The position numbers and the translations under genes are program-made. Positions 4,810-36,261 of a DNA stretch of 64,000 nucleotides are shown piece by piece (position 1 is the first letter of the stretch; every line of letters starts with the position of its first letter). Source of the stretch: a virus; the IMG/VR virus record IMGVR_UViG_3300033150_000473, positions 1 to 64,000 of that record. The stretch is one strand, 5' to 3'. Below the pieces are notes generated by a model. That model did no database searches. It had not been told where the DNA came from and saw only the letters and a list, made by a program, of their open reading frames with translations.

Positions 4810-4815
4810 GGCGGC

Positions 4816-9227: not shown

Positions 9228-9458
9228 ATGCCTAAGTTTCGCAAGAAACCCGTAGTCGTCGAGGCCGAGCAGTGGTTCCCCGGCAAAGAAGTCGAAGGAG
9301 TCGTAGAAAGAGCTAAGGGGGCTTACGGCTACATGGTAGCGTCAACGGGCAAACACATCGTCAACGCAGGGGACTGGGTGATTACACGCGAAGAATACCG
9401 GTGTCCATGCAGCGCCTTGATGTTCAAGGCCAAGTACGAACCCATTGAGGAGGACTAA
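9228..9458 (+). CDS. Small conserved phage protein
   Basis: A 76-residue product starting MPKFRKKPVVVEAEQWFPG and ending FKAKYEPIEE, with a GDWVIT turn in the middle. This KKPVxVEAxQW...GDWI...F..tYEp pattern is widespread in phage genomes; the function is unknown. It follows the phosphoesterase by 10 nt. Confidence 0.85.
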   Translation: MPKFRKKPVVVEAEQWFPGKEVEGVVERAKGAYGYMVASTGKHIVNAGDWVITREEYRCPCSALMFKAKYEPIEED

Positions 9459-9459
9459 C

Positions 9460-9912: not shown

Positions 9913-10268
9913 CTTTAGTTACGTTGCCACCGGTGCGCCCGCTCCAGCCAAGCCAGTGTGAGCATGGCCTGGGCTTTATGGTTCAGATGCGCTACTGGCT
10001 TCAGGACATACGTGACCGTTGGCAAATGCGCCGCGGCAAGATCATTGATGAGCGCTGTAGACATTGTTGGGTTGTCTTGAAACGGTTCAGTAAGCCAGTG
10101 TACACGGAGGTTTTCTTGGAGGCCCCTGGTGAGCCACTGTGTAAACACGCCTGGAAGCAATGTGCGTTCTGTGGTAGCATAACCTGTGACAGTTACCTGT
10201 ATAAGCGCTATCCGTCTGACCCAGGTTTTTCGTGGGTCAGTTATAACCATGTCTTTGGAATCTGCTAA
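9909..10268 (+). CDS. Cys/His-rich hypothetical protein
   Basis: A 119-residue product from a GTG that overlaps the previous stop (GTGA). Pairs CEH, CRHC and CKH...CAFC suggest one or two zinc sites. The N-terminus is uncertain: ATG 9978 (MVQMRYWLQ) is an alternative start. No family recognised. Confidence 0.55.
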   Translation: MTLVTLPPVRPLQPSQCEHGLGFMVQMRYWLQDIRDRWQMRRGKIIDERCRHCWVVLKRFSKPVYTEVFLEAPGEPLCKHAWKQCAFCGSITCDSYLYKRYPSDPGFSWVSYNHVFGIC

Positions 10269-16722: not shown

Positions 16723-18273
16723 ATGCCATTGAGAAACCCGCTATGCATATTAGACGAAGACGACATGGCGTCCGATAGCGACATCTGTGTTCCCACGCAG
16801 CAGAGCGTCAAAGCCTACGTGGATGAGCGAAACTACTTCGGCATAGCCTGGAACGAGTCCACTGACGCTTACGAACGTCGCGGGGAACTCGCGGGCGTGG
16901 CAGCAGGAAGCTCGCCTGGGGACTCCGCGTTGCCTATCCAAGCGGCTATGCGACGGTGTGTCATCAGTGACGCGGGGGTAGTGCAGTACTATCTAGACCC
17001 TACTGACTCCACCAAGAAACTGAGCGGCGAGGCTTCAGTTCTCACGGGCGCAGACGGCCAGGTGATGGTAGAGATACCGAAGTTCTACTATCGCTACAGC
17101 TACGCATCGAACGTCCACAAGTGGGACATCTCGTTCCTGCCACTGGCTGGATTTGACGTACACCCAGCCTTCATCAAGAACGGCGTGGAGGTTGACTATC
17201 GTTACATCGGTGCATACGAGGGCGTGCTTTACGACAACTCTGAGTCTGTATACACTTCTGACTACAACCAGGTAGCGGCACACGCTGCCACGTTTGCTGT
17301 ACCCGCCAACACCATCACAGCGGGGGCGGGGACACCGTATGCCCTGTTGCAAGCTGGCGATGTAATCGTAGTTACAGGAACGCCCAGCAACAACGGGACT
17401 TATGTAATCTCAACGGTGGTGGGTGGGAACGTCATCACGACTGTGGGGGCATTGGTGGCAGGCGAAGCTGCGCCGAACACAGTTATCACTGCACCAGCAG
17501 TAGATACGGCTAACGACAAGTTGTCAAGCGTCAGCGGCAAGAAAGCAGTCACCGGCATCACGAGAGCCAACTTCCGGTTGATTGCAGCCAAGCGGGGCAC
17601 GGGCTGGCGGCAGTTCGATTTCTATCTAGCATCAGCAATCCAGTTGCTATATCTCGTAGAATACGCAGACTTCTACTCGCAGAGCATGATTGGCAATGGG
17701 CTGACAGATTGGGCCAGCGGAACGTGGAACACGCACAATGCCTATCATGCCATCAACAACGGCGGGCTAAGTAATGGTGACGGCAATGTGACTGCTAATG
17801 TTTCCAACGGCGATGGTGTTGTGGGTTCATACATGAGTTACCGCGGTATCGAGAACTGGTATGGGCATGTCTGGAAGTTTGTAGACGGGTTCAATGTCAA
17901 TAACTATGACGACAATGCGGGGACGGCATACAGTCGTGTGTGGGCTTCGAATACCGATACCGACTTTACGGATGATACCGCCGCGAACTACACGCAGGTT
18001 GGCGATGTTTGTGAAACTGATGGATACCAGAACACGCTAGTCCAAGTGGCGAGTGCTTTCTTGCCGTTGACGGTGGGCGCTGGTAGCACGACCAAGATTA
18101 CGGATTACTATTGGGCTTACTTTGATGATCTCTCTGCGCCGTTTGATGAATGGCGCGTGGCTCTTGCGGGCGCGGCCGCGTCCTACGGTGCGGGTGCCGG
18201 GGGCTGGGCGCTGCTTCTTCATCTTGCGTCGGGTAATGCCTCTGCGGATCTTGGCTCTCGGGCCTGCTTTTGA
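16723..18273 (+). CDS. DGR-diversified C-type-lectin-fold protein
   Basis: A 516-residue product. The N-terminal half carries beta-rich modules, a Thr/Val-rich insert lies near residues 180-265, and the C-terminal 250 residues look like a C-type-lectin fold (for example YRGIENWYGHVWKFVDGFN, then FLPLTVGAGSTTKITDYYW). The last 40 codons are the variable region, which matches the downstream template repeat except at template adenines. It is likely a virion receptor-binding tip whose ligand contacts are rewritten by the adjacent reverse transcriptase. Three ORFs before the portal form the target module. Confidence 0.92.
   Translation: MPLRNPLCILDEDDMASDSDICVPTQQSVKAYVDERNYFGIAWNESTDAYERRGELAGVAAGSSPGDSALPIQAAMRRCVISDAGVVQYYLDPTDSTKKLSGEASVLTGADGQVMVEIPKFYYRYSYASNVHKWDISFLPLAGFDVHPAFIKNGVEVDYRYIGAYEGVLYDNSESVYTSDYNQVAAHAATFAVPANTITAGAGTPYALLQAGDVIVVTGTPSNNGTYVISTVVGGNVITTVGALVAGEAAPNTVITAPAVDTANDKLSSVSGKKAVTGITRANFRLIAAKRGTGWRQFDFYLASAIQLLYLVEYADFYSQSMIGNGLTDWASGTWNTHNAYHAINNGGLSNGDGNVTANVSNGDGVVGSYMSYRGIENWYGHVWKFVDGFNVNNYDDNAGTAYSRVWASNTDTDFTDDTAANYTQVGDVCETDGYQNTLVQVASAFLPLTVGAGSTTKITDYYWAYFDDLSAPFDEWRVALAGAAASYGAGAGGWALLLHLASGNASADLGSRACF
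18151..18270 (+). repeat. DGR variable region (VR)
   Basis: 120 bp at the 3' end of the variable gene, aligned without gaps to 18315-18434. I counted 33 differences, of which 32 are at template adenines, the hallmark of adenine-directed mutagenesis. It ends at the stop codon. Confidence 0.96.
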
Positions 18274-18314
18274 GTTTTTCAAGTTTTAGGGTTTTCCATA
18301 TCAATCAGGCCAGT
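18271..18314. other. Spacer between VR and TR
   Basis: 44 bp of AT-rich sequence including the stop codon of the variable gene. No separate accessory (avd) gene fits here. Confidence 0.6.
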
Positions 18315-18434
18315 TAGCGCGTAGCTCATGCAGGCACGAACACGAACAACAGTGCGAATGCCAGGGGCTAGGCACTGAATCTTAATAATGCGTCAGGTAA
18401 TACCAATGCGAATATTGGCACTCAGGCTAGCTTA
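18315..18434 (+). repeat. DGR template repeat (TR)
   Basis: A non-coding 120-bp copy of the VR. Read in the VR frame, it has AAC or AAT codons at nearly all positions that vary (at least ten), the codon choice that gives most amino-acid diversity without stops, and it contains in-frame TAG codons that are changed in the VR. The transcript of this region is the template for the reverse transcriptase. Confidence 0.95.
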
Positions 18435-18555
18435 TTTCGAATGACAAACAAATACGAGATATGGAAAACCTTGCCTCTCGGCAAAACACAAGGCAATGCC
18501 CCATTGGTGTTGGTAGGGCCGAAGGGTCTCGAAGGCTCCGGGGTGAAATAAGCAG
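18435..18555 (+). ncRNA. TR-RT intergenic RNA
   Basis: About 120 nt between the template and the reverse-transcriptase start, with the pairs CCTTGCCTC/GGCAA and repeated aaggc/gcctt segments. In studied systems this part of the RNA is needed for cDNA priming. No gene is visible. Confidence 0.45.
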
Positions 18556-19644
18556 ATGAAACGCTACGGCGATCTGTACGCCAAGATTTGGGACATGGAG
18601 AATATCCGCGAGGCACACCACAATGCACAGCGCGGCAAGAGGCATTACCGCGAAGTACAAATGGTAAACGCCAATGAGGAGAAATATCTATCACAAATCC
18701 AGGCAATGTTGCGTGACAAGACATTCCACACTTCCGAATATGAGGTCTTCACCAAATCAGACAGTGGCAAAGAACGCGAGATTTCTAAACTGCCGTACTT
18801 CCCAGACAGAATCGTGCACCACTGCGCCATGCAGGTACTTGAGCCAATCTGGATGAAGACACTCATTACCGATACTTATGCTGCACTGAAAGGACGGGGC
18901 ATTCATAGGGGTGTCAAAAGGGTAAAGCTGGCATTGCGCGACAGAGAAAACACGCAGTATTGTCTCAAGTTTGATATACGCAAGTTCTATCCGTCCGTTG
19001 ACCATGACGTCTTGAAGTCCATAATCCGCCGGAAGATCAAAGACCCAGGTGTATTGTGGCTCTTGGATGAAATCATAGACTCCGCTGATGGTATTCCAAT
19101 TGGGAATTATCTCAGCCAGTATTTTGGCAACTTGTACTTGGCGTATTTTGACCATTGGATGAAAGAAGAGAAGCGTTGCAGATACTACTTCCGCTATTGT
19201 GACGACATCGTAGTGTTGCATAGTAGCAAGAAGTTCCTGCATGGGCTGTTCAGAGAAGCACAAGAATATCTATCTACCAATCTGAAACTGTGCATCAAAT
19301 CCAACCATCAGATATTCCCAGTAGACAAGCGCGGTATTGATTTTCTTGGCTATCGGTTCTTCCATGACTACGTACTCCTGCGAAAGAATATTGCACAGAG
19401 ATTTAAAGAAAAGGTGCGCCACATTCGACGCGAGTGGTGGAACATGCGGCCAAGCCAAGTCGTAAACAGCATCATGAGTTATTGGGGCTGGATGAGGCAC
19501 GGGAACTGTCTTAATCTTGCCAAGAGACATATTGACGGGGAAATCCAACGGATCATAGCAGAAACGTGTAAGGCAAGCGGAACGAGAAATCCATTAAGGA
19601 GACTTAAATGGCTCAAGGCGACACCTATCCAGAAACCACAGTAA
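18556..19644 (+). CDS. DGR reverse transcriptase
   Basis: A 362-residue reverse transcriptase. Motif A is FDIRKFYPSVDH (139-150), the DGR-type motif IPIGNYLSQ (180-188) stands in place of the retroviral QG motif, and the catalytic YCDD is at 214-217. The size and the S-Q signature fit the error-prone enzymes of diversity-generating retroelements rather than group II introns (no maturase domain). It copies the upstream template RNA and misincorporates at adenines. Its 3' end overlaps the next gene by 37 nt. Confidence 0.95.
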   Translation: MKRYGDLYAKIWDMENIREAHHNAQRGKRHYREVQMVNANEEKYLSQIQAMLRDKTFHTSEYEVFTKSDSGKEREISKLPYFPDRIVHHCAMQVLEPIWMKTLITDTYAALKGRGIHRGVKRVKLALRDRENTQYCLKFDIRKFYPSVDHDVLKSIIRRKIKDPGVLWLLDEIIDSADGIPIGNYLSQYFGNLYLAYFDHWMKEEKRCRYYFRYCDDIVVLHSSKKFLHGLFREAQEYLSTNLKLCIKSNHQIFPVDKRGIDFLGYRFFHDYVLLRKNIAQRFKEKVRHIRREWWNMRPSQVVNSIMSYWGWMRHGNCLNLAKRHIDGEIQRIIAETCKASGTRNPLRRLKWLKATPIQKPQ

Positions 19645-20003
19645 AATCGCGCGGCAAGACGCTATATAGGTACAACATCCGTGAAGTTGAAGTTACCAAC
19701 GAACCCAATGGCAAGCCCCGAACGGCCTACGAGTATGATGAAGTTGCCATCGCGGGCAAAGTCACCAAAGCCAAGATCGTCGCTGCCATGCGTACCGCCG
19801 AGGCCGAGCAGGACACCAGTGACATTGGCGAGGCTGCGGCGCAGTATCGGGGCGCCAAGGGCGCGATCAAGCTGTCGAACCTGTCCGAGTTTACCTATGA
19901 CGAACTCGATACCTATATCCAGATTCATGTGACTGACATGGCGTCAGCCAGGGGCTTTCTGAAGAAACTCGCGAAGGTTGTGTTAGCGATACTAAAGAGC
20001 TAA
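19608..20003 (+). CDS. Hypothetical phage protein after the RT
   Basis: A 131-residue product starting MAQGDTYPETTVKSRGKTLY. Beta-rich N-terminal half, then an Ala-rich helix and an acidic DELDTYIQIHV segment. It does not look like the basic four-helix Avd accessory protein of known retroelements, but its overlap with the RT makes it the only candidate for a partner. Ribosome-binding site AAGGAGACTTAA. It could equally be a structural gene preceding the portal. Confidence 0.65.
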   Translation: MAQGDTYPETTVKSRGKTLYRYNIREVEVTNEPNGKPRTAYEYDEVAIAGKVTKAKIVAAMRTAEAEQDTSDIGEAAAQYRGAKGAIKLSNLSEFTYDELDTYIQIHVTDMASARGFLKKLAKVVLAILKS

Positions 20004-20007
20004 GGTC

Positions 20008-21558
20008 ATGCCGCAAATGCAGTTGCAAATCAGAGACGAGATGCGCGCCAGCGTGCGCCAGTTCCCCAGGCATCAGCCGATCATCTTCCGCGTTGCTATG
20101 ACGGCGGATGGAGTTCCGGCCTGGTGGGGCAAAGACCGCGACGCTTACCTGCGCCTTTTCTGGCAGCAGGAGAGTTTCCTGGCAAGCACGGTCTACGCGC
20201 TATGTGCCCGTAACGCAGGCTTCCAATGGGTCGTCGAGGGGCCAGAAGCCGAGAGCTTGCAAGCCACAAGAACCCTGCGCAACGTAGAGTTTGGTCAGGG
20301 CTGGCAGCAACTGATGCTTCAGTTCTCAGAGGACTTGTTAGTCAGTGACAACGGGGGATTTATCGAGATTATCCGGCCAGCACGGGCTAGAATCAACGGC
20401 AAGAGCTATCCGGCCATCGCCAAGAGGCACAAAAGCGGCGACATAGACTGGTTTGCTATCATCAGCCGCATGGGCCACGTGAAGCAGGTAGAACCGGAGG
20501 ACGTCAGCGACTCGCCCTACGACCTACCGGTTAGCTTGGCTCACCTAGATTCTGCAAAAGTCACGCGCACCGGAGACCCCGACACCCCTGTGATCTACAC
20601 AGATCGCAACGGAGGCGAGCATGAGTTGAAGTCATGGCAGGTGATGAGCATGACTGACATGCCGTCACCCATTGAGGAGATGCACGGGGTGGGCTTTTGC
20701 TTCGTCAGTCGCGTTCTCAGAAACGCCCAAACCGTGAGAGACTGGACTATCTTCCGGCAAGAGAAAATCAGTGGCCGGTTTGCCAGAGCGGTTCACCTCA
20801 CCAACGTAGATTCTGACTGGATTTCTGATGCTATTGCCCAGGCTCAAGCCAAAGCAGACGAACGGGGGCTTCTAGTCTACTCTCAGCCCATCATCACCAA
20901 TACACTTGACCCTAGTTCCAGGCCGTATCTTGTAACTATTCCGCTGGCTGAGTTGCCAGACGGGTTCACCGAAGACGAGACCATGCGCTGGTACATCGGG
21001 CTTCTGGCATTGGCGGCAGGGGAGCATTACAGCTTCCTCGCCCCCATGCCTGGTAGACGATTGGGATCAGCCAGAGAAGTCGAGGTGCAGGAACGACAGG
21101 CGCGAGGCAAATCGTCTCGGCTGTTCATGGATCAGTTGGCTACCCAAATCAACAACGCCGGTATCTTGCCGGAGGGATGTGTATTCGTCTTCCGAGAAAA
21201 GGACACCGAAGAACAAGCGGCACACGAGCAAGCCGAACGCAGGCGGGCCGAGACCCGCAAGATGCGCATCGAGAGCGGCGAGATAACACCAGCGATTGCC
21301 AGGCAGATTGCCAAAGACCAGGGCGACTTGAAAGACGAATACCTGCAACAACTAGGCGAGGAGGATATTACACCGGATGAAGGCGAACCATTGGAGAGCG
21401 TAGATGGGGTGGAGGAGAAACAGGAAGAACCCCTGGATATTTCCAAAGACGACGTGGCGCGAGCTATCGGCAAGTGGAATGACCGTATGTCGGAGGCCGA
21501 GGGTCTTCTACAAGCGTCCGAGGCGGAAAAAACCGCGGGAGGACTAGATGCCGAGTAA
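20008..21558 (+). CDS. Portal protein
   Basis: A 516-residue product with the position and features of a phage portal: an N-terminal arm, a central region with WQQ and FSEDLLVSDNGGFIEIIRP (a common portal stretch), a long helix-rich C-terminal part (NIQ-like ARGKSSRLFMDQLATQIN) and an acidic helical tail. The portal forms the dodecameric DNA channel at one capsid vertex and docks the terminase. It overlaps the protease gene by 11 nt. Confidence 0.8.
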   Translation: MPQMQLQIRDEMRASVRQFPRHQPIIFRVAMTADGVPAWWGKDRDAYLRLFWQQESFLASTVYALCARNAGFQWVVEGPEAESLQATRTLRNVEFGQGWQQLMLQFSEDLLVSDNGGFIEIIRPARARINGKSYPAIAKRHKSGDIDWFAIISRMGHVKQVEPEDVSDSPYDLPVSLAHLDSAKVTRTGDPDTPVIYTDRNGGEHELKSWQVMSMTDMPSPIEEMHGVGFCFVSRVLRNAQTVRDWTIFRQEKISGRFARAVHLTNVDSDWISDAIAQAQAKADERGLLVYSQPIITNTLDPSSRPYLVTIPLAELPDGFTEDETMRWYIGLLALAAGEHYSFLAPMPGRRLGSAREVEVQERQARGKSSRLFMDQLATQINNAGILPEGCVFVFREKDTEEQAAHEQAERRRAETRKMRIESGEITPAIARQIAKDQGDLKDEYLQQLGEEDITPDEGEPLESVDGVEEKQEEPLDISKDDVARAIGKWNDRMSEAEGLLQASEAEKTAGGLDAE

Positions 21559-22294
21559 AATCGAACTTCCCTATGGTTTGGGAGCGCGCTACAAAGACGA
21601 CGACCGCGACTGGCGCTACAGGCGCGGAGCTTTGGTACGCAGCGGCACGCACAGGCCACCAGTGGTAGACAACCGTCACCTGTTCATCAGGATACCCGTG
21701 TGGAATCAAGGGAAAGAGGGTGCTTGCACTGGAATGGCGATGGCTGGAGCACTGAGCGAGATTTACGGCCAAGAACTCAGTCCCCGTTTCATGTTCGAGG
21801 CGGCCAAAGAGCACGACGAGTGGCCTGGTGAGGACTACGACGGGTCTTCGGTGCGAGGTGCAGCCAAAGCCGCGGCCTCTGTAGGCTGTTGTCTGCACAA
21901 CTTGTGGCCGTTCGCGCCCTTCCAGACAGGGGGGAAAGACCCGAATGCTAACACTGATGCCAAGCTGCATGTGCTTACCAGCTACGAGCGACTAGGTTCG
22001 CTCAGGGAGATACTACATGCCATCTGGGACATGGGATACGTGGTAGCGACGGTTGACGTGCACACAGGGTGGATCAGGCCAACGAGGAAGCACAGGATAC
22101 GCTATCATCCCAGGTACATCAGCCGTGGACTTCACGCAGTCTTGTTCTGTGGCTACGACGAGAAGACCGGCTACTTGTTGCTTCGCAATTCTTGGCGGGA
22201 CGACTGGGGCGATGCGGGGTATGCCTGGTTGAAGTTCGATGACTGGATGGCAAACGGCCAGGATGCGTGGATGGTTGTCAATGAGGCATACTAA
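21548..22294 (+). CDS. Papain-like (C1) cysteine protease
   Basis: A 248-residue product with the full papain catalytic set: oxyanion Gln54 and nucleophile Cys60 in WNQGKEGACTG, His196 in GLHAVLFCGYD, and Asn214 in LRNSWRDDWGDAGYAWL. There is no signal peptide. It lies between portal and MuF-like genes, where phages often carry prohead-associated proteins. A role in processing a head protein, or injection into the host, is inferred. Papain-family enzymes are uncommon in head operons. Confidence 0.9.
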   Translation: MPSKIELPYGLGARYKDDDRDWRYRRGALVRSGTHRPPVVDNRHLFIRIPVWNQGKEGACTGMAMAGALSEIYGQELSPRFMFEAAKEHDEWPGEDYDGSSVRGAAKAAASVGCCLHNLWPFAPFQTGGKDPNANTDAKLHVLTSYERLGSLREILHAIWDMGYVVATVDVHTGWIRPTRKHRIRYHPRYISRGLHAVLFCGYDEKTGYLLLRNSWRDDWGDAGYAWLKFDDWMANGQDAWMVVNEAY

Positions 22295-25762: not shown

Positions 25763-27208
25763 ATGGATCAAAGACAAATCGACGCGCTCAGCATGGCTAT
25801 TGCACAAGCGATAGGCCAGAAGGCTCCTGCTACGACTCCTAGCGGCTCGTGGATGCACGGGCCAGGCGGGCTGTTTGCAGGTACGGCCATCGACAAGCGG
25901 GTGCTGAGTCTACGCATTGCCCCACGGGGTATCTCTAGTGTGCTGCGGGCGTTTCCGTCCGCGTACACCAATCCTGAGTTTGGCTATCTGACGGGGACCA
26001 TTCAGTCAGCCGGACAAACTCAACCTAGCGACGAATGCTCCACCTGTGTCCACGGGGAAACGCAGTCCTGTGTGCAGACCGCGCAGTTTGGGCGAATCTG
26101 TGCCGAGACCAAGACCCTGACGATCCAGAGAGCAATCGAGCGCGTCAACCGCATGGACGTCGACTACACCCTGGTCAACGACCTGTTTGGTGAAGATTTT
26201 GCCAAGGACTTCTTCCGCGGCGTGCGGAAGATCGACAACAGCAAGGTCATGCAACTGTCAGTAGCCTGGGCCATGGTCGAAGTCGGAGTGCTCTTGCAGA
26301 ACCTGGGCGTACCAATGGTCTGGCAGGGCAATCCAACCAATAGTGTCGGCACGGGCTACATGGAGTTTCCTGGACTGGACATCCTGATCGGTGTCAACAA
26401 GGTCGATGCTCATACAGGGAACTCTTGCAACTCTCTGGACTCTGATGTCAAGGAGTTCAACTACGCCAGTGTCAATAGCGTCGATGCCGCAGGGAACTTC
26501 CACATCGTGCGCTACATGGAGGCTATGGAACACTACCTGTACCACAACGCCTCTCGGCAGGGTTTCTTGCCCGTTGAGAAGGTCATAGTTATGCGGCCTG
26601 AGTTGTGGCAGGAGTTCTCTATGATCTGGCCCACGGCATGGATGGCAACACGGAACATCGTGCTACCTGCCGGAAATACCAACTTCCTGGACGCAACTCG
26701 CATCAGGGAAATGGTGGCTGAGCTACAGCGCACTATGACGCTGGAACTGAACGGGCGTCGCTATCAGGTCATCCTGGACGATGGTGTCTTCGAGTATACC
26801 AACGTCAACGACGCCAACGTTCCTGCTGGGTCTTATGCCAGCAACATCTACTTTGTCCCGACCCGCGTCATGGGGCAAAGGGACGTCTGTTTCTTCGAGC
26901 ATCTGGACTACCGCGCAGGTCGCCAAGAAGCCGCAGACGCTAGGCTCCAGCAGACCTACTGGACGGACGATGGCAGGTTCTTGTGGACGCACGAGACCAC
27001 GAAGTTTTGTTTCACGGTCTCCGGCGAGATGAAGCCACGGGTCATCCTGCTGACGCCGCAACTGGCTGGCAGGATCAACCACGTGCTATACTCGCCGCTG
27101 CAACACCTGCGGAGCTACGACCAGGATTCGAGTTACTTCTTCAAGGGAGGCGAGTCAAGTCGTGGCGCTCCCTCGCTCTTCAGTGACTGGAACTTGCCGC
27201 GACAGTAA
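25763..27208 (+). CDS. Major capsid protein
   Basis: A 481-residue product after the scaffold gene, with AAGGAGAGTGAAACA before its start. Long, moderately acidic, with features such as a Cys-containing SDECSTCVHGETQSC segment (about 94-108), an AIERVNRMDVDYTLVNDLFGEDF helix split, and ELQRTMTLELNGRRY near the C-terminus that resemble HK97-fold capsid proteins of the larger type. Identification rests on order, size and composition. The Cys cluster could bind metal or cross-link subunits. Confidence 0.75.
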   Translation: MDQRQIDALSMAIAQAIGQKAPATTPSGSWMHGPGGLFAGTAIDKRVLSLRIAPRGISSVLRAFPSAYTNPEFGYLTGTIQSAGQTQPSDECSTCVHGETQSCVQTAQFGRICAETKTLTIQRAIERVNRMDVDYTLVNDLFGEDFAKDFFRGVRKIDNSKVMQLSVAWAMVEVGVLLQNLGVPMVWQGNPTNSVGTGYMEFPGLDILIGVNKVDAHTGNSCNSLDSDVKEFNYASVNSVDAAGNFHIVRYMEAMEHYLYHNASRQGFLPVEKVIVMRPELWQEFSMIWPTAWMATRNIVLPAGNTNFLDATRIREMVAELQRTMTLELNGRRYQVILDDGVFEYTNVNDANVPAGSYASNIYFVPTRVMGQRDVCFFEHLDYRAGRQEAADARLQQTYWTDDGRFLWTHETTKFCFTVSGEMKPRVILLTPQLAGRINHVLYSPLQHLRSYDQDSSYFFKGGESSRGAPSLFSDWNLPRQ

Positions 27209-27392: not shown

Positions 27393-28349
27393 ATGCCATA
27401 CTGGAACGGTCGTCGTATCGTCGTCACGGGGGGATGCGGTATGATTGGGGCCCCCTTAGTCCGACTGCTAGTGGAGCATGGGGCGACAGTAATCGTCTTG
27501 GACGATCTCAGCCGTGGATATACACAAATTGAGGGAGCGTCTTACCTGAGAGGCGACGCTGGCTCTATGACCAGGTGCGTGGAAACCTTTCAGCGCGCTG
27601 ACGGTGTGTTTAATCTAGCAGCTACGGTGGCTGGGGTAGACTACAACATGGCCCACCAACTTGCCATGTACAGCGCCAATATGCGGCTACAACTTGTTCC
27701 TGTCCTGGCGGCGGTGGAGGCCAGGGTTAGGCGGTTCGTGCAATGTTCAAGTGCGTGTATCTATTCGCCTGAGTATAACCACCCAGCAAAGGAAGATTAC
27801 GGGCACGCGGGGAATCCACATGCAGGCAATGCGGGTTATGCTTGGGCCAAGCGTATGGGTGAGCGGGCTTTTCTATGGTCAGGATTGAACGGAGTGATCG
27901 TCAGACCGTTCAATTCGTATGGCCCTTTGGACTACTATGACGAACGGGCGCACGTTATCCCTGCGCTTATTAAGAAGTGCTTACAGGATGATGTGGTAAA
28001 GGTAGCCTCTAGGGACACAGTGCGAGAGTTCATCTACTCCGCGGACGTAGCTGAGGGAATGGTCGCAGCCTATCAGTGGGGACGCAACCAAGGTATCTAC
28101 AACCTAGGAACAGGAGGAAAGACGGCGGTTAAGATACGTGGCTTGACCATGATGATACTCAATATCATGGGACTAAAGGACAGCCCACCGGTAGAATGGC
28201 TAGACAGCAGGGCAGGTGATGAGATACGCTTTAGTGACTGTACCTTGGCAGAAAAAGAACTGAATTGGCACTATCGCACTGGGTTAGTTGAGGGATTGGG
28301 GAAGGCCATAACTTGGTATCAGGAAGCGAGGGAAAATGTCGGGCTATAG
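27393..28349 (+). CDS. NAD(P)-dependent sugar epimerase/dehydratase
   Basis: A 318-residue extended short-chain dehydrogenase. The Rossmann motif VTGGCGMIGA is at 11-20 and the catalytic YAWAK (Tyr-x3-Lys) is about residue 149. FNSYGP and REFIYSADVAEG are typical of GDP/NDP-sugar epimerases and 4,6-dehydratases. It is the first gene of the sugar cassette, so it likely makes the activated sugar used by the downstream glycosyltransferases. The exact substrate is not clear. ATG 27393 has ACAAGGAGTGTTCA before it. Confidence 0.9.
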   Translation: MPYWNGRRIVVTGGCGMIGAPLVRLLVEHGATVIVLDDLSRGYTQIEGASYLRGDAGSMTRCVETFQRADGVFNLAATVAGVDYNMAHQLAMYSANMRLQLVPVLAAVEARVRRFVQCSSACIYSPEYNHPAKEDYGHAGNPHAGNAGYAWAKRMGERAFLWSGLNGVIVRPFNSYGPLDYYDERAHVIPALIKKCLQDDVVKVASRDTVREFIYSADVAEGMVAAYQWGRNQGIYNLGTGGKTAVKIRGLTMMILNIMGLKDSPPVEWLDSRAGDEIRFSDCTLAEKELNWHYRTGLVEGLGKAITWYQEARENVGL

Positions 28350-29043
28350 GGTCCTTGTACTCACCAGTGACCATTACTTGCACGCCTTGCAACCGTTCAG
28401 TTTCTTGTTCAATAAGTTCTGGAGTCCAGAGCAAGAGGTTGTAGTCGGTGGTTTCAAGCAGCCTGAGTTCATGTTGCCACCCAACTTCACCTTCGTGTCC
28501 CTAGGCGACATGAAAGACTATCCCATCGACAAGTGGTCGGACGCCTTTATCAAGTTCCTGAACATTGTGCCCGATGAAGTGTTTGTCTTCATGCTCGAAG
28601 ACTACTGGTTGACGCGACCGGTAGACGTGGAAGCGGTCAAGATTCTGTATGACTACATGGAACAATTCAAGTACGTCTTGAAAATTGACCTCTGTGCTGA
28701 CCGTCTCTATGCCATGAATATGCAGTCCTACGGATGGGTTGGGCGTTTGGACTTGGTGAAGTCGGACAGGGGTTCACCGTACCATATGAGCCTGATGACG
28801 GGCTTGTGGCGAAAGAAACTGTTGCTGAAACACGTCATCCCTGGAGAGTCGCCTTGGGACATCGAGATCAGGGGCACGCGTAGGTTGTCCCTGGACGGCG
28901 ACGATATTGTGTTAGGTTCGAGGCAGTGGCCCGTGAGGCATCTTCTAGCATACAGGGGTGGTGACAGTAGCAGCGGAGCCGACGTGTCTGCACTAAAGCC
29001 AGAAGACGTTGCTGAAATGGAGAAAAGGGGGTATCGGTTATGA
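28336..29043 (+). CDS. Putative GT-A-type glycosyltransferase
   Basis: A 235-residue product starting MSGYRVLVLTSDHYLHALQPF. VFVFMLEDYWLTRPVD resembles the acidic loop of GT-A enzymes, and the size fits a single catalytic domain. It overlaps both neighbours (14 and 4 nt), consistent with a translationally coupled sugar operon. Family not established. Confidence 0.55.
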   Translation: MSGYRVLVLTSDHYLHALQPFSFLFNKFWSPEQEVVVGGFKQPEFMLPPNFTFVSLGDMKDYPIDKWSDAFIKFLNIVPDEVFVFMLEDYWLTRPVDVEAVKILYDYMEQFKYVLKIDLCADRLYAMNMQSYGWVGRLDLVKSDRGSPYHMSLMTGLWRKKLLLKHVIPGESPWDIEIRGTRRLSLDGDDIVLGSRQWPVRHLLAYRGGDSSSGADVSALKPEDVAEMEKRGYRL

Positions 29044-30197
29044 AAAAAGTGACCGTGGGGACCTTCACGGCGACGGAGCGAATGCGTGAATTGGTGAACG
29101 AGGTCTTGAATACAGGCCGAATCTCCTACGGCCCAATGTCGCGGGAGTTCGAGCGCAAGTTTGCCTCGATCCACGAGAGCCAATTCGGTATATTGTCCAA
29201 CAGCGGCACTAGCAGTCTTCTAGTAGCTTTGCAGGCTATGAAAGAACTGTATGGCTGGCGAGACGGCACAGAAGTCATAGTACCGTCAGTGACTTTCGTC
29301 GCTACCATCAACATCGTGCTGCATTGCCGCATGAAACCTGTGATAGTGGATGTAGAACCCGATTGCTACGGCATGGATCCAGGGTTACTCCATCGCGCCA
29401 TCACCGACCAGACTAAAGCAATCATCCCTGTGCACCTCTTTGGGATGCCCTGTGATATGACGGCCATCAGTGAAATCGCTGACTTGTATAGCCTCAGAAT
29501 CATCGAAGACAGTTGCGAAAGCATGTTTGTGCGCCATGCTGGCCGTATTTCGTGGGGCGATATTGGGTGTTTCTCTACTTACGTGGCACACTTGATCACG
29601 ACAGGCGTCGGTGGCATAAGTACGACAGACAACGAAGACTTAGCTATCAGGATGCGGTCTCTAGTCAATCACGGGCGTGACAAGGTTTACATCAGCATCG
29701 ACGATGACGATAATTTGTCTGAAGCCCGATTGAAGGAAGTGATTGGCAAGCGACTCCGTTTTGGCTCTGTGGGTCATAGTTTCCGTATCACGGAACTTGA
29801 AGCCGCTTTAGGTCTAGCCCAACTGGAAACATGGCAGGAGATGATCAGAAAGCGGCAGGGGAACGCCCAATACCTGACCGTGAAGTTGAGCGCTTATCCA
29901 CAATTACAACTACCGACGATCCGAGACAACACGGGGCATGCTTTTATGATGTACCCAATCGTAGTTAGGGAAGGGGGCAAGTGGGGTCTAGTACACCATC
30001 TAGAAGCCAACGGTATCGAGACCAGGGACATGCTTCCAGTTACCAACCAGCCTGTTTACCAGGATTGGTTGAACGAAGACGATTATCCTGTTGCCAAATG
30101 GATCAACCAAGGTGGCCTATATTTGGGCTGCCATCAAGACTTGACGGTTGAAGACTTGGACTGGATCATCTACCAGGTTGACCGGTTCTACTCTTGA
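29040..30197 (+). CDS. DegT-family sugar 3-dehydratase with catalytic His (ColD-like)
   Basis: A 385-residue PLP-fold (DegT/DnrJ/EryC1/StrS) protein. SNSGTSSLLVAL binds the cofactor phosphate and EDSCES is the usual PLP ring contact. The Schiff-base lysine is replaced by His184 in FSTYVAHLITTGVGG, matching the PAHHIT-type motif of ColD and SpnQ/E1 dehydratases. Those enzymes remove the 3-hydroxyl of NDP-4-keto-6-deoxysugars instead of transaminating. It therefore probably makes a 3-deoxy or 3,6-dideoxy sugar, which would need a partner reductase or reductant. A plain loss of activity is the alternative. Confidence 0.8.
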   Translation: MKKVTVGTFTATERMRELVNEVLNTGRISYGPMSREFERKFASIHESQFGILSNSGTSSLLVALQAMKELYGWRDGTEVIVPSVTFVATINIVLHCRMKPVIVDVEPDCYGMDPGLLHRAITDQTKAIIPVHLFGMPCDMTAISEIADLYSLRIIEDSCESMFVRHAGRISWGDIGCFSTYVAHLITTGVGGISTTDNEDLAIRMRSLVNHGRDKVYISIDDDDNLSEARLKEVIGKRLRFGSVGHSFRITELEAALGLAQLETWQEMIRKRQGNAQYLTVKLSAYPQLQLPTIRDNTGHAFMMYPIVVREGGKWGLVHHLEANGIETRDMLPVTNQPVYQDWLNEDDYPVAKWINQGGLYLGCHQDLTVEDLDWIIYQVDRFYS

Positions 30198-31717
30198 ACA
30201 TCGAAGTTTGGTGGAAGGGCAAGAAAATCATCTACGTCATTGGCTATCCACGCTCAGGTACGACGTGGATAGCTAGAGCCATTGCTTGCGCTTTGGACTG
30301 TCCGATGTTGGGGGCGGCCGCGGAATGGACAGCACCACCGCCAGACGTTGAGGGGTTGGATAGAGAGAGCGAATATGCTGTACGGCGTGTGCATTTCCCA
30401 GAGGAAAAGTTCCTGGGAAGAACAGCCGACCACGAGGTTGTTGGTGTCATCTTCTCTGTGCGTGATCCACGAGATGTTGCGCTTTCAGCATGGCGCTACT
30501 TTACTTACAGCAAGGATCAGGAGGGTTTGTGGAATTGCGTCAACCAATTGTCGGGAGTAGGACATGATGGTGCTCCCCTCCAACCACAGCGATGGGCTGG
30601 CAGAAATCGGCGTGGCTGGCCTGGTTATGTGGAAGATTGGTTAGGCACTCCATCGATACGTTACGAAGACCACCTGAGAGACCCAGAAGGCGAACTGACC
30701 AGGGTTTTGGAGGAACTTGGCTTCCAGATACCGCAAGAGAGAATTGCCGCCGCTGCCGAAGCCAATCTCTTTCACAACCGCAAGAGAGACAGCCTCATGT
30801 TTCGAGGCAAAGCAGGCATGTGGCGGTTTGAGTTAGAACCAGAGATGGTGGAGACTATCGAGGAACATTGCGGCGACATCATGGAACGACTGGGGTACAC
30901 AAAAGGAGATACTATGTCAAGTGTTGAGGAACTGCGTGAGAGGGTAGAGGGATTGAAACACCTTGATACACCTGGGCTTTCTGAATCATGGCAAGGACGC
31001 CGCAAGACGATCAGCGAACATATCCTGGGGCATGACTTGTTGGATTTCCTGAATTGGGCTGTAATCAGGAGCACGATGTTTGTAGGAGACGCCCCCTACA
31101 TTCCCGCGAAGTTGAAAGCGATGCGCAAAGTACGAAAAGGCTGGCGTCGCTGGCGCAACGCAATGAAAGAGGACGACTTTGGTGGTGCTCTCAGACTACC
31201 AAAAGAGAGTTGGACGAGCGGGAATCTCATCAACCAGGGGAGCCACCTCCACATGTTCGAGCAACTAACGGGCTTGAGTGTCAACGACATGCCTGCCATT
31301 GGTGACTTTGCAGGCGGCTATGGAGCGATGGCAAAGATTATTAGGCGGCTTGGCTTTGAAGGGCCTCTGGCTACCTACGAGATGCCAGAGATGGCCGCCT
31401 TGCAGCAGTTCTATCTGGAAAACATCGGCATCGACGATGTGCAATCCCTGTATCATCTAGAGGACTTCATCGATGTGTTCAAGGATGGAGGTCTGTTCAT
31501 CTCTATCTGCGGCCTCAGCGAACTACCGTTTGCCCTCCGGTTGAGCATCCTAGAAGAGGTGAAAGCAACAGCTTACCTGATCGTCTATGGTCATATCTGG
31601 GACGGGAAAGATAACGAGAAACTCTTTGGCCGGTTTATGAAAAAGCACCCTGAGATTTCTTGGCAGCGGGGTAATTGCATCTACACCCATCGCTACCTGA
31701 TAGGTGTGACCAGGTGA
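30194..31717 (+). CDS. Sulfotransferase-methyltransferase fusion
   Basis: A 507-residue two-domain product. Residues 1-235 are a PAPS-dependent sulfotransferase: 5'-phosphosulfate loop YPRSGTTW (about 18-25), 3'-phosphate motif SVRDPRDVALSAW (about 91-103) and a FRGKAGMWR segment near 205. Residues about 240-507 carry GDFAGGYGAMAKII, a SAM-binding glycine-rich motif, in a putative sugar O-methyltransferase. The start is TTG 30194, overlapping the previous stop. The enzyme could sulfate and methylate a virion glycan; the substrate is inferred from context. Confidence 0.8.
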   Translation: MNIEVWWKGKKIIYVIGYPRSGTTWIARAIACALDCPMLGAAAEWTAPPPDVEGLDRESEYAVRRVHFPEEKFLGRTADHEVVGVIFSVRDPRDVALSAWRYFTYSKDQEGLWNCVNQLSGVGHDGAPLQPQRWAGRNRRGWPGYVEDWLGTPSIRYEDHLRDPEGELTRVLEELGFQIPQERIAAAAEANLFHNRKRDSLMFRGKAGMWRFELEPEMVETIEEHCGDIMERLGYTKGDTMSSVEELRERVEGLKHLDTPGLSESWQGRRKTISEHILGHDLLDFLNWAVIRSTMFVGDAPYIPAKLKAMRKVRKGWRRWRNAMKEDDFGGALRLPKESWTSGNLINQGSHLHMFEQLTGLSVNDMPAIGDFAGGYGAMAKIIRRLGFEGPLATYEMPEMAALQQFYLENIGIDDVQSLYHLEDFIDVFKDGGLFISICGLSELPFALRLSILEEVKATAYLIVYGHIWDGKDNEKLFGRFMKKHPEISWQRGNCIYTHRYLIGVTR

Positions 31718-31721
31718 GTTA

Positions 31722-32420
31722 ATGGAACAGAAAGAAATCTACGTAACTGCATTCCCAAGGTCAGGCAACACGTGGCTCAACCGCCTGCTGGCTGACGTGC
31801 TCAATTCGCCCATGCAAACCCAGCCCAACGCTGTCGTCAATTGGGCTAGTGAAGGGCGGGATGGCGATTACGTACTGCGTAAGGCGCATAAGTTGGGATA
31901 CGAGAAAACTGACGGGAAGTGGATATTCATCCAGCGAGACCCGCGGGACGTTGCTGTATCGGCTATGTATTACAGCAAATCTCCCTCTTTGTTAGAAACG
32001 CTTATGACACTGTTGTGTCGGTGTGAACCCTGGAAACCAGGGATATTCCGCAAAGTTGGCGTCTACGAGCGTTGGGTGAGGTCGTGGTTAGATACAGGGT
32101 TAGCAGATGTAGTAACGAAGTACGAGATTTTGCACGCTGATCCCGTGCACGAGCTTAGTCGCATCGTCAGTGTTCTTACCGGATTGTCTTTAGACATGGA
32201 TTGGATTAGAGAGTGTGTGCAGCGTCAGTCGTTTGACGTTGTTGCCAAGTCTCGAAAGGGGGACTTAGCTATGCGCAAAGGCATCGTCGGTGACTGGCGC
32301 AATCATTTCACTCGTCCTGAAGGGCATTTGCTGAACGATTATCTAGGGGAGTTCATGTACGAACAGCGGTACATTGAAAAGTTTGACTGGTGGGTAAACT
32401 TACCCATGGAAAGGACATAA
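31722..32420 (+). CDS. Sulfotransferase
   Basis: A 232-residue sulfotransferase with FPRSGNTW (about 11-18), QRDPRDVAVSAMY (about 70-82) and RKGIVGDWRNHF (about 186-197), the three conserved PAPS-binding segments. It is distinct from the N-terminal domain of the preceding gene, so the cassette encodes two sulfotransferases. Cytoplasmic, with no signal peptide. The acceptor is probably a sugar made or attached by neighbouring gene products. Confidence 0.88.
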   Translation: MEQKEIYVTAFPRSGNTWLNRLLADVLNSPMQTQPNAVVNWASEGRDGDYVLRKAHKLGYEKTDGKWIFIQRDPRDVAVSAMYYSKSPSLLETLMTLLCRCEPWKPGIFRKVGVYERWVRSWLDTGLADVVTKYEILHADPVHELSRIVSVLTGLSLDMDWIRECVQRQSFDVVAKSRKGDLAMRKGIVGDWRNHFTRPEGHLLNDYLGEFMYEQRYIEKFDWWVNLPMERT

Positions 32421-32423
32421 TGC

Positions 32424-35054
32424 ATGCCGACTTTTTACGTACACCCGTCCCCCGCTCGTGGGGAGATCGACTTCGGTGTTATCAAGCGCATCATTGAGGT
32501 ACACCAACGTCAACTGCCGAGGCACGGCTGGAAAGAGGTTAGCACCGAGGCCCACGCGCAGTTGGTAGTCGGACACCTGGGTGCAAACTCTGAGAAACTA
32601 GACGTTTTCCATTTGCATGGCTTCTATCCCACTGGGATGCTCGAAGACATGCCCAAGCAATGTTGGGCTGCCAACTCGGCCATCATCGAGAATGTCAGGC
32701 GAGCCAAGAATGTTATTGCCGTCTCGGAGTGGGTTGCTGAGACTTTACGCCGTGACATGCATCTGGATCCGATGGTGTGCGGTCATGGCATAGACTTGGA
32801 CGTGTGGGCCAAAGTCAAAGCCGTGAAGAGAAAACCGTATGTCTTGTGGAACAAGAACCGGACACTTGGTGTATGTGACCCGCAGCCAGTGATCGAACTT
32901 GCTCAACGTTTACCTAAACTGGATTACGTCACTACGTTTCTACCTGGAGACGCAAAACCTACTAAGAACATCTCAGTAACGGGTACTCTAGCTACATCGA
33001 AGATGTGGCCTTTGGTAAAAGGGGCATCTGTCTACCTGGCTACGACGAAAGAGACATTCAGCATCAGTGTCTTGGAAGCGATGGCTTCTGGAGTGCCGGT
33101 GGTTGGTTTCAACTGGGGCAACGTGCCGGTACTGATTGACGGTTGTGGGGTATTAGTTGAGCCGTATGATTACGACGGATTAGCAGAAGCGGTTGAAGAA
33201 GCACTGGATCGCAGGGATGAGTTCGGGGCAAATGGGAAGGAGCATGTCAAGCAATTCACGTGGGATAGGGTGGTCTGGCGATTGGCACGTCTCTACCAAG
33301 AGTGTTTGGAGGAACACAAAGGCCCGAAAGTCACGGTAACAATCCCATGTAAAGATTATGGCCGGTATGTCAAACAGGCGATTGAATCTGTCTTTGCCCA
33401 GACATTCGAGGACTGGGAACTGTTTATTGTCGATGACGGGAGCAGTGACGACAGCGCTGCTGTGATCCGAGAGACTATTGCCGATGAACCACGAGCCCGT
33501 TACTTGCGCCACGAAAACGCGATGGGGGTAGCTCATGCTCGCAACCGTGGCATCAGCGAAGGCAGAGGTATGTACGTTAGTTGCCTGGATGCCGATGACA
33601 TCATGGAGCCTGAGTTTCTAGCAAAGATGGTCGCAGCGATGGACGAAGACCCGAAACTGGGTCTAGCCTATAGCGGTTTGCGCCTCATGGACGAGAACGC
33701 ATCTGCGGCAGACAATGTTCATGCCTTCCCAGGGCAGTATGATCCAGAGAGAGGCATGAAGGGAAACCAAATCCCCACACTCAACATGTTCCGCAGGGCC
33801 ACCTGGAAACGACTTGGTGGTTATCGACAGAGGTTCGCTCCTCATGGTGCAGGGCTTGAAGACGGTGACTTCTGGTCACGAATACTCGCTTGTGGTGGGG
33901 GTGCTCGCAGGGTTACGGATGAAGGGTTGTTTCTCTACCGCATACACGCTAAATCAGCGACCAGAACATATCACGACAAAGGGAGTCCCTGGTACGATTG
34001 GCAGCCGTGGAAAGATAACGACAACCATCCATTCGCCTCTCAGTTGGGCATCCCACCAATGGGGTCTTGGGCGGTAAGAGACTACGACCGTCCCAGAATC
34101 GCTATAGTAGTTCCTGTAGGGCCTTACCACAAGTTGGACATGATCAACGCCCTGGATTCTGTAGAAGCACAGACTTATCGTTTCTGGGAATTGATCGTAG
34201 TCAACGATACAGGAGAACCATTGGATCTCAGCGCCTGGCCGTTTGCCAAGTTGATTGACACAGAGAAGGCCAGTACGGGACCTGGTCACAGTCGTAACTT
34301 GGGGACGGCTGCGTCGAGTGCGCCACTGGTTGTTTACTTGGATGCTGATGATGTACTACAACCCACTTTCCTGGAAGACACGTTGAGTCTTTGGTTGGAT
34401 GTGGGTGGTTGGATTTACACTGATTTCTTCTATACCAAAGCAGACGGAGCACGCAACATCTGGCAGGCGAAAGAATGGGATGCCGAGAGGTTGTGGGAAA
34501 AGGGCGTGGCAGCGGTAACAGGTTTGTATCCAGTTCAAGCCTGGGAGGATGTAGGGGGTTTTGACGAACAGATCGCTCACGAAGATTGGGAGTTCCACAT
34601 CAAATTGGCTCTTGCGGGTTGGTGTGGGACGCGGTTGGCGAAACCGCTCATCACCTACCAGCACGACACAGGGAAGCGACGCGAGGAATGTATCGCCGCC
34701 GAGGGGTTCAAGCAAGTCAAGAGGCGCTATGCCAAGGAGAGCCTAATGGGGTGTAATTGTGGGAAGGGTGGCGGGGTGGTAAGGAAGATTCGCCGGCCAG
34801 TAGAGAAGGTAGAAAGTATCGACTTAGACCCATCCGTGCTACCTGCTAAGTCTGATGACAGCTACAGGCTCATCATGTACGTTGGCAAATCCAAGACCGA
34901 CCTGATGTTCCGGGGCAGGACGGGGAAAACTTACATCTTCAGCACAGCGAGACGGTTAGCCTGGGCTGACCCACAAGATGTTGGGAGACTAGCCCGCAAG
35001 TCTGTATTGCGCATCGTGCAAGAGGAGACAGCCCGTGCGAGCCTCAACGTATAG
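32424..35054 (+). CDS. Triple glycosyltransferase fused to a head-gene domain
   Basis: An 876-residue product with four parts. Residues 1-295 form a GT4-type (GT-B) enzyme with VCGHGIDLDVW and ETFSISVLEAMASGVPVV. Residues about 298-530 form a GT2 enzyme (VTVTIPCKDYGRYV, VDDGSSDDS, CLDADDI). Residues about 550-765 form a second GT2-like enzyme (IAIVVPVGPYHK, YLDADDV). Residues 775-876 are a small domain starting MGCNCGKGG that resembles a separate phage head-operon protein. The GT parts likely build a multi-sugar chain. The C-terminal fusion may tether the enzyme to, or supply, the virion. Confidence 0.85.
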   Translation: MPTFYVHPSPARGEIDFGVIKRIIEVHQRQLPRHGWKEVSTEAHAQLVVGHLGANSEKLDVFHLHGFYPTGMLEDMPKQCWAANSAIIENVRRAKNVIAVSEWVAETLRRDMHLDPMVCGHGIDLDVWAKVKAVKRKPYVLWNKNRTLGVCDPQPVIELAQRLPKLDYVTTFLPGDAKPTKNISVTGTLATSKMWPLVKGASVYLATTKETFSISVLEAMASGVPVVGFNWGNVPVLIDGCGVLVEPYDYDGLAEAVEEALDRRDEFGANGKEHVKQFTWDRVVWRLARLYQECLEEHKGPKVTVTIPCKDYGRYVKQAIESVFAQTFEDWELFIVDDGSSDDSAAVIRETIADEPRARYLRHENAMGVAHARNRGISEGRGMYVSCLDADDIMEPEFLAKMVAAMDEDPKLGLAYSGLRLMDENASAADNVHAFPGQYDPERGMKGNQIPTLNMFRRATWKRLGGYRQRFAPHGAGLEDGDFWSRILACGGGARRVTDEGLFLYRIHAKSATRTYHDKGSPWYDWQPWKDNDNHPFASQLGIPPMGSWAVRDYDRPRIAIVVPVGPYHKLDMINALDSVEAQTYRFWELIVVNDTGEPLDLSAWPFAKLIDTEKASTGPGHSRNLGTAASSAPLVVYLDADDVLQPTFLEDTLSLWLDVGGWIYTDFFYTKADGARNIWQAKEWDAERLWEKGVAAVTGLYPVQAWEDVGGFDEQIAHEDWEFHIKLALAGWCGTRLAKPLITYQHDTGKRREECIAAEGFKQVKRRYAKESLMGCNCGKGGGVVRKIRRPVEKVESIDLDPSVLPAKSDDSYRLIMYVGKSKTDLMFRGRTGKTYIFSTARRLAWADPQDVGRLARKSVLRIVQEETARASLNV
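34746..35054 (+). CDS. Possible internal product: MGCNCGK-type small head protein
   Basis: In the same frame as the glycosyltransferase, ATG 34746 is preceded by GCCAAGGAGAGCCTA, a strong ribosome-binding site that would give a separate 102-residue protein (Cys-rich start, then YRLIMYVGKSKTDLMFRG, GRTGKTYIF). Small proteins with an MGCxCGK start are common between capsid and connector genes in siphoviruses. Both a fused and a free form may be made. Confidence 0.5.
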   Translation: MGCNCGKGGGVVRKIRRPVEKVESIDLDPSVLPAKSDDSYRLIMYVGKSKTDLMFRGRTGKTYIFSTARRLAWADPQDVGRLARKSVLRIVQEETARASLNV

Positions 35055-36261
35055 CTTGGTTAGTTTATCACAGTTTGCCCAGATACTCGGGCTCGACCCG
35101 CTGCATTTCGCGGGAGGTCACAGCGCGTTGAGGCCAGTAGGTGCTCATTGCCACGACGTATGGACGCAATACCAGTGGCAAGACCCTGGGAAAGCCAGCA
35201 GAGAAGAGATCGCCCGCTCCCTGAAACGCGCCGAGGAAGAGATTGCTGACATCTGTGGTTACTATGCAGCGTGGAAGTGGATCGCTGATGAGAGACATAA
35301 ACTAGACCGCGGCGGATCGTGTTGCAACGTTGCCAGGACGCGCCTCGTCACCAAGAGAAAACATGTGCTCGGTGGTGGGGCTAAAGCTATCAGCGACATT
35401 GATGATGTCACCAGGGAGGCAGACATAGACCCTGATGGTGACGGGTTTGCTGAAACGGCTGTCTTCACTCTCGCCAATATCCCTACCACGTGGGATTTGG
35501 AAGAGATCAGAGCCTGTTACAAAGTGTACGCTCCTGGTGATGCGGAGAACTGCCGCACAGACCCATCCAGTGATGGATACGACGAAGCATGGGAAGTACG
35601 CCCTCTGAAACTAAGCCGCAGTGACACTACGGTAACGGCTTATCTTCCTGTGTGGCATTTGTTCAAGCCAGAACTGTACGAGCGGCTAAACCCTAGTCAA
35701 ATCAATGCCGACGACGCCAATAGTTATGTAGACACGCTCAGCTTCTACCGCGTTTATACTGACTTATCATCTCAGGCATCATTCATGTGGGGGACGGATT
35801 GCGTCTACGACGTTAGCTGTGCCTGGGCCATACAGCCTGGGTGCATCCGTACCCCTGATCCGCGAACTGGCATAGTCACCGTCGTCCCTGGGACGTGGGA
35901 CGCTGACAATGATCGTTACAACGCTACCAGCTTCACGTACAACACAGTACCGGATGCGGTGCGGCTCTGGTATCGTGCTGGACTTGAACGCCCAGCTCCT
36001 GGGATAGTTGACAGTAGAATGGCGCGGCTGATTGTCATATTGGCTTGTACCAGACTCGACTATCCCATCTGCACCTGCGGAAACGCACAAACGTTGGTGG
36101 CTAACTGGCGAGAGAATGCAGCCAGGGCGAGCAAAGAGAGAACGTTCATGTTGACACCACAGATGCTCCAGAATGTGCTGGGGATGCGTGTCGGAGAGAT
36201 CACCGTGTGGTCAGCTCTCAATATCCCTAGCACGAGGGTAGGCAAAGCGGTGCGCACATGA
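35035..36261 (+). CDS. Head-tail connector-region protein (putative)
   Basis: A 408-residue product starting at GTG 35035, overlapping the previous gene by 20 nt. The N-terminal part has SREEIARSLKRAEEEIADICGYY, a helical segment like head completion adaptors, followed by beta-rich domains with several Cys (GGSCCNV, CTCGNA). Its position after capsid and cassette and before a gp10-like gene suggests an adaptor or neck protein, longer than the usual adaptor (about 100-150). Confidence 0.55.
   Translation: MRASTYSLVSLSQFAQILGLDPLHFAGGHSALRPVGAHCHDVWTQYQWQDPGKASREEIARSLKRAEEEIADICGYYAAWKWIADERHKLDRGGSCCNVARTRLVTKRKHVLGGGAKAISDIDDVTREADIDPDGDGFAETAVFTLANIPTTWDLEEIRACYKVYAPGDAENCRTDPSSDGYDEAWEVRPLKLSRSDTTVTAYLPVWHLFKPELYERLNPSQINADDANSYVDTLSFYRVYTDLSSQASFMWGTDCVYDVSCAWAIQPGCIRTPDPRTGIVTVVPGTWDADNDRYNATSFTYNTVPDAVRLWYRAGLERPAPGIVDSRMARLIVILACTRLDYPICTCGNAQTLVANWRENAARASKERTFMLTPQMLQNVLGMRVGEITVWSALNIPSTRVGKAVRT

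Follow-up and report, generated by a model that had tools for sequence, protein, structure and literature searches.

The 64,000-nucleotide stretch analysed here (the window) belongs to an IMG/VR virus record of 75 kb, IMGVR_UViG_3300033150_000473, and carries at positions 27393-35054 a cassette of six genes for sugar synthesis, glycosylation, sulfation and methylation. All six are on the + strand, between a major capsid protein gene (25763-27208, +), whose product has an HK97 fold and which served as anchor of the locus, and a gene in connector position (35035-36261, +). Their order is epimerase, GT-A glycosyltransferase, ColD-like 3-dehydratase, sulfotransferase-methyltransferase fusion, second sulfotransferase and GT4-GT2-GT2 protein. 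The initial annotation spoke of six overlapping genes. All six are present, but this wording is slightly generous since only three of them overlap the preceding gene (gene 28336 by 14 bp, genes 29040 and 30194 by 4 bp each), whereas genes 31722 and 32424 start after gaps of 3-4 bp. The connector-position gene in turn overlaps the last cassette gene by 20 bp. The enzyme identities first proposed were borne out by Pfam matches and motifs, by AlphaFold (AF2) modelling and Foldseek for the GT-A protein and by homologues for the methyltransferase half. A hydropathy scan found no membrane-range segment in any cassette protein, and no flippase, polymerase or transmembrane glycosyltransferase occurs among the cassette genes; judged by their sequences, the enzymes all look cytosolic.

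Two enzymes are devoted to sugar synthesis. The first gene (27393-28349, +) encodes a short-chain dehydrogenase/reductase (SDR) of epimerase/reductase type (PF01370, 2.8e-43), similar to GDP-L-fucose synthase and ColC; its best start is the ATG at 27393, preceded by AGGAG. Top PDB match of its profile is GDP-fucose synthetase (7.6e-59), with catalytic cysteine and histidine aligned, and Tyr149 and Lys153 (Tyr-xxx-Lys), Cys122 and His187 are invariant in four phages. Since it scores 87.8 bits against the curated equivalog NF047922, far under the cut-off of 500, we call it only ColC/Fcl-like. The third gene (29040-30197, +) encodes a DegT-fold nucleotide-sugar 3-dehydratase (PF01041, 2.9e-85). 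Its His184 stands at the position of the catalytic lysine that binds pyridoxal phosphate (PLP) in aminotransferases. All phage homologues with scores over 300 bits have this histidine, which aligns to the E1 histidine, while the alignment shows no counterpart of the cysteine-rich insert of E1 (the [2Fe-2S] motif of E1/SpnQ) in the phage dehydratases. ColD is known to combine a DegT fold with a catalytic histidine in place of the PLP lysine, to lack Fe-S cysteines and to pair with an Fcl-like SDR (PMC8987622); the phage dehydratase thus has both ColD-type features, histidine for lysine and absence of the [2Fe-2S] cysteines. The predicted sugar is a 3,6-dideoxy-hexose made by a ColD/ColC-like route, which is more specific than the deoxysugar named in the initial annotation. 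No 4,6-dehydratase was found in the phage cassette, and the 4-keto-6-deoxy precursor is probably supplied by the host. In some relatives (L010/L042, L017/L029), a second DegT gene is found further along the cassette, which suggests more than one special sugar in these phages.

Glycosyltransferases are represented by two genes. The 235-aa product of the second cassette gene (28336-29043, +) is an orphan without Pfam, NCBIfam or PHROG match and serves as marker of the cassette. Its AlphaFold model is of high quality (predicted local distance difference test, pLDDT, 92.5) and is matched by Foldseek to GT-A enzymes B4GALNT1, POMGNT1, SpsA and RmlT. The last gene (32424-35054, +) encodes a GT4-GT2-GT2 triple glycosyltransferase (PF00534, PF13692 and two PF00535 stretches) with a C-terminal CxCG/KOW-like module. 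It contains the EX7E motif at residue 210 and DADD at residues 389 and 640; its catalytic residues, as well as both module cysteines, are invariant in nine phages. The virus therefore encodes glycosyltransferases with intact catalytic motifs (EX7E, two DADD) in addition to the GT-A fold.

The remaining two genes would serve to cap the sugar chain. The fusion gene consists of a domain of 3'-phosphoadenosine-5'-phosphosulfate (PAPS)-dependent sulfotransferase type (30194-30925, +; GYPRSGTTW ... RDPRDV; PF00685, 1.6e-11) and of a class I methyltransferase domain, similar to sugar O-methyltransferases, in the C-terminal half of the open reading frame (ORF; 30926-31717, +). This half has free-standing homologues and is 31% identical to one of them, the L003 methyltransferase. 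Some methyltransferase relatives match TIGR04371 below threshold (best 35.1 bits, cut-off 44), and the window domain gives no match to this family. The second, cytosolic-type sulfotransferase (31722-32420, +; AFPRSGNTW, RDPRDV, RKGIVGDWRNHF; PF00685, 7.9e-14) matches sulfotransferases in PDB. A motif scan located PAPS-loop motifs (PxSGxTW and RDPRDV type) in both sulfotransferase domains. Literature searches gave no phage sulfotransferase acting on virions.

The C-terminal module of the triple glycosyltransferase (34746-35054, +) comprises a CxC(G) motif, a stretch termed KOW/SH3-like from its sequence pattern and not from a database match, and, in many phages, a helix-hairpin-helix. It is predicted to be also made alone, from an internal ATG at 34746 with AAGGAG upstream. 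L002 encodes the module in an ORF of its own (19479-20024), which directly follows the glycosyltransferase stop. In other phages it is in frame, and the cysteines are preceded at a distance of 1-3 codons by an ATG, GTG or TTG that has a Shine-Dalgarno sequence upstream; the five junction codons other than Met are all GTG or TTG, and in several phages another candidate start is seen at the KOW-like domain. An internal start with strong Shine-Dalgarno sequence is present in 27 of 27 phages (25 scored jointly, two more placed by hand). Mean Shine-Dalgarno pairing is -7.4 kcal/mol at the 25 junctions versus -2.5 at 1296 other in-frame start codons (NTG) of the same genes, and the level of -5 kcal/mol is reached by all 25 junctions but by 17% of these controls (Mann-Whitney p 2e-14). 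After synonymous recoding of the upstream codons the mean is -4.9, and none of 300 trials reaches the observed mean over 27 phages; the signal is therefore stronger than the coding sequence explains. These data predict that the triple glycosyltransferase gene yields two products, a free head-region module and a glycosyltransferase tethered to the same module. Against the two-product part only, it can be objected that the signal is a relic of a fusion between module and glycosyltransferase genes, in which the old start no longer matters. Losing a stop codon would readily produce such a fusion, and the L002 module is indeed a separate gene. Nevertheless, start codon and Shine-Dalgarno sequence are kept in all 27 phages, although their glycosyltransferases share no more than about 35-39% identity with that of the window, and the signal exceeds that of synonymous recodings. 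We therefore regard the relic explanation as unlikely.

We wondered if the cassette also occurs together with the capsid gene in other viruses. Relatives were reached by single-sequence search of viral contigs with the GT-A protein; the same type of search with the capsid, the portal-position protein and the fusion protein found no relatives. The capsid family was opened when three capsids were aligned and used jointly as query, which retrieved 17 contigs: starting relatives L002 and L003 and 15 further viral contigs with capsid homologues. Together with the present record, this gives 18 capsid-bearing records (L018 and L019 being near-duplicates around the capsid). Most of them were found by the capsid alone; GT2 domains are present in 17 of 18, GT-A in 15 and DegT in 11. 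In nearly all carrying records, the GT2 domains form a GT2-GT2 pair within one long ORF, and the sole record lacking GT2 is a fragment of 11 kb. In the converse search, starting from GT-A, 34 contigs had enough upstream sequence, and in 26 of them a gene of the capsid family precedes GT-A on the same strand at a distance of 0.1-9.3 kb; where 9 kb were present downstream (23 of these loci), the triple glycosyltransferase is found in 22 and the connector-position gene in 16. Some of the remaining GT-A clusters are found in other structural regions: those of L027 and L028 have a head-tail adaptor nearby, and that of L038 follows Dit and minor tail genes. The survey of related phages proposed by the initial annotation thus shows that cassette genes co-occur with the capsid. 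Since the relatives are not independent, no p-value is given for this synteny, but the recurrence is far beyond chance. Capsids of the relatives are only ~36-39% identical to the window capsid, and the capsid-cassette linkage is therefore old.

In contrast to the glycosyltransferases, dehydratase, epimerase, sulfotransferase and methyltransferase genes are variably present among the relatives, so that sulfation and methylation are accessory and not universal in the family. In L009, the place that DegT takes in cassettes of relatives is occupied by a DNA cytosine-5 methyltransferase (L009:12203-13438; TIGR00675, 1.2e-65). Mobile insertions were also seen. L002 contains, by eye, an intein-like stretch in an ORF upstream of the portal and homing-endonuclease-like ORFs within the cassette (L002:37-1482, 9238-10005, 17265-17972), and in L017 a LAGLIDADG insertion is located in the portal (L017:4130-6994). 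Five capsid matches on mostly short contigs of metagenome-assembled genomes point to differing phyla, which does not suffice for a host assignment; two are assigned to Anaerolineae or Ardenticatenales. In public phage records (n=50,697), tblastn found no relatives of the capsid, the GT-A protein or the second sulfotransferase, and there was no match to the portal-position protein, the sulfotransferases or the C-terminal module either.

As for the flanking genes, the capsid gene has no PHROG or Pfam family match, and its assignment follows from an AF2 model of moderate confidence (pLDDT 66.8, predicted template-modelling score 0.66), whose best Foldseek matches in PDB are phage capsids and encapsulins (best E 5e-10). 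The gene at 35035-36261 has no named family in Pfam, NCBIfam and PHROG profile searches, and it keeps the same position downstream of the cassette in most relatives. The placement originally given, between capsid and head-tail joining genes, is confirmed as one between an HK97-fold capsid gene and a gene of conserved connector position. A peptidase-family gene (21548-22294; phrog_16701, 1.5e-19) lies between the portal-position and capsid genes.

Taken together, the cassette is probably a cytoplasmic virion-glycosylation pathway. Its presence inside a structural operon across highly diverged phages, the cytosolic appearance of its enzymes and the fusion of glycosyltransferase with module support the coordinated use on the virion that had been proposed from the locus. 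From the observed gene content, folds, active-site residues, synteny and internal-start signal, we infer sugar identity, order of transfer and acceptor as follows. The cassette would act late, in the cytoplasm. ColD-like dehydratase and ColC/Fcl-like epimerase would convert a host 4-keto-6-deoxy sugar nucleotide to an activated 3,6-dideoxy-hexose of colitose type. The GT-A and GT4-GT2-GT2 enzymes, with four glycosyltransferase domains, would build a short oligosaccharide of about four sugars, which would be capped by the sulfotransferases with host PAPS and by the methyltransferase with S-adenosylmethionine. The most likely acceptor of the glycan would be a virion protein, probably one of the head. 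A soluble cytoplasmic acceptor is the simplest assumption because neither membrane segment nor lipid-carrier enzyme is seen in the cassette, and a virion protein is favoured because of the head-operon position and the fused, separately translatable module. In this scheme, the module made alone would be part of the head region, and through the fused copy the glycosyltransferase would be docked on the particle.

Going one step further, the locus may encode a self-targeting machine, in which the free CxCG/KOW module assembles into the head and the same module docks the glycosyltransferase on the particle, so that the head, while assembling, receives a dideoxysugar glycan with sulfate and methyl groups. 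We put this forward only tentatively; it is more doubtful than virion glycosylation as such. To our knowledge, no such machine for virion glycosylation has been described in phages.

Several observations weigh against virion glycosylation. L009 has a DNA cytosine methyltransferase inside its cassette. The module has no recognised homologue in solved structures, PHROGs or public phage records, and for this reason its role as virion protein rests on position; two alignments used in module scans of viral contigs were too diverged, and a third recovered only the same phages. Pfam matches to sulfotransferases were obtained in only 7 of the 17 capsid-family records searched, so that sulfation is not essential to the system. 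Finally, the cassette products could also be substrates for host flippases and ligases.

The last point leads to the possibility that the enzymes alter host surface polysaccharide late in infection via host lipid carriers and flippases, resulting in superinfection exclusion or preventing adsorption of progeny to debris. ColD/ColC-type sugars are classical O-antigen sugars (PMC8987622), and surface-modifying glycosyltransferases are common in phages. On the contrary, the cassette is tightly embedded in the head operon and lacks transmembrane glycosyltransferase, flippase and polymerase; no tyrosine integrase was detected in the 18 records (serine integrases were outside the search), and fusion of a glycosyltransferase to a separately translatable module would serve no obvious role at the host surface. 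Lysogenic O-antigen conversion, a trait of temperate phages with membrane GtrA/B/C-type proteins, is likewise not indicated, as there are no transmembrane segments and no tyrosine integrase. Given the lack of membrane machinery and of tyrosine integrase, action on the host surface is less likely than action on the virion, and we consider it improbable, slightly more so than the relic explanation above. Very unlikely is a glycan built on modified bases of phage DNA: glycosyltransferases and sulfotransferases are reported in hypermodification systems (in PMC10829341, which cites Iyer et al. 2013) and the L009 enzyme is a C5-cytosine methyltransferase, but the window phage has no C5-methyltransferase, its thymidylate synthase is ThyX, the cassette is linked to the capsid and not to DNA-metabolism genes, and the 18 records contain neither a thymidylate-synthase-type hydroxymethylase (the positive control was detected) nor a Tet_JBP match (a weak test, as control genomes gave none either); novel base-modifying enzymes could, however, escape these searches.

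Other features of the window are independent of the cassette. A diversity-generating retroelement consists of a variable repeat (VR, 18147-18270), a template repeat (TR, 18311-18440) and a reverse transcriptase (18556-19644; phrog_1423, 4.8e-125). The repeats were detected by an A-tolerant scan and missed by plain direct-repeat search; within the 130-base VR/TR stretches, 34 of 42 differences fall at template A, the rest being at the edges. The target of diversification would be the C-terminal end of the tail protein encoded at 16723-18273. A protein with glycosyl-hydrolase catalytic core (59167-60381, - strand; PF11790, 1.1e-21) has perhaps a role in lysis or as depolymerase. Genes for ThyX (60845-61666), a dCTP deaminase-like protein (60378-60848) and two N6/N4 DNA methyltransferases (4798-5622, 56784-57611) were also identified.

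Our analysis indicates that, in an uncultured tailed-phage family, a complex glycan belongs to the core of the structural operon, with tailoring enzymes being rapidly exchanged. If this is true, particles would look different to receptors, to competitors and to enzymes of the host. The nested module offers a direct way to test how a cytoplasmic glycosyltransferase might be brought to the particle by the phage that encodes it. In this respect the locus resembles the lambda head genes: the Nu3 scaffold corresponds to the C-terminal part of the C protease and arises separately, by initiation within the same reading frame. In both cases, the C-terminus of a head-region enzyme is also translated alone (here by prediction), but the present enzyme is a glycosyltransferase and its module an orphan.

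Glycosylation of virions by viral enzymes is already known from mycobacteriophages and giant viruses. In mycobacteriophages Che8, Corndog and Myrna, sugars are attached to the capsid and the tail tube (Freeman et al. 2023, as cited in PMC12363180 and PMC12619734). As here, the glycosyltransferases are phage-encoded, acting there on capsid and tail-tube proteins; these accounts, as far as they are quoted, name glycosyltransferases only, in contrast to the cassette for sugar synthesis, sulfation and methylation in the head operon found here. In chlorovirus PBCV-1, the triple glycosyltransferase A111/114R and the GT-GT-methyltransferase A064R make the capsid glycan (PMC7826918). Multidomain glycosyltransferases are of similar size in both viruses (860 aa for A111/114R, 876 aa here), and the methyl-capped glycan on the PBCV-1 major capsid protein has its counterpart in the glycan predicted here from genes. 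PBCV-1 is, unlike our phage, a eukaryotic giant virus, with no sulfotransferase named and no fusion to a separately translatable module; the relation would be functional analogy rather than homology of the whole. Fibril glycogene clusters of Moumouvirus australiensis and Cotonvirus belong to a group in which some mimivirus relatives have sulfate-metabolism genes (PMC9614988). These clusters are, similarly to our cassette, clade-specific and variable and contain multidomain glycosyltransferases, along with sulfate-metabolism enzymes, but they decorate fibrils of giant viruses, whereas the cassette is part of a tailed-phage capsid operon. With the colitose pathway (PMC8987622) it shares the DegT fold with catalytic histidine and without Fe-S cysteines, together with an Fcl-like SDR; it differs in lacking a 4,6-dehydratase, and its product is predicted only. 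What is new here is the combination of a capsid lineage to which tblastn finds nothing related in public phage records, a ColD-type dideoxysugar route, sulfotransferases and fusion of a glycosyltransferase to a module nested in its gene.

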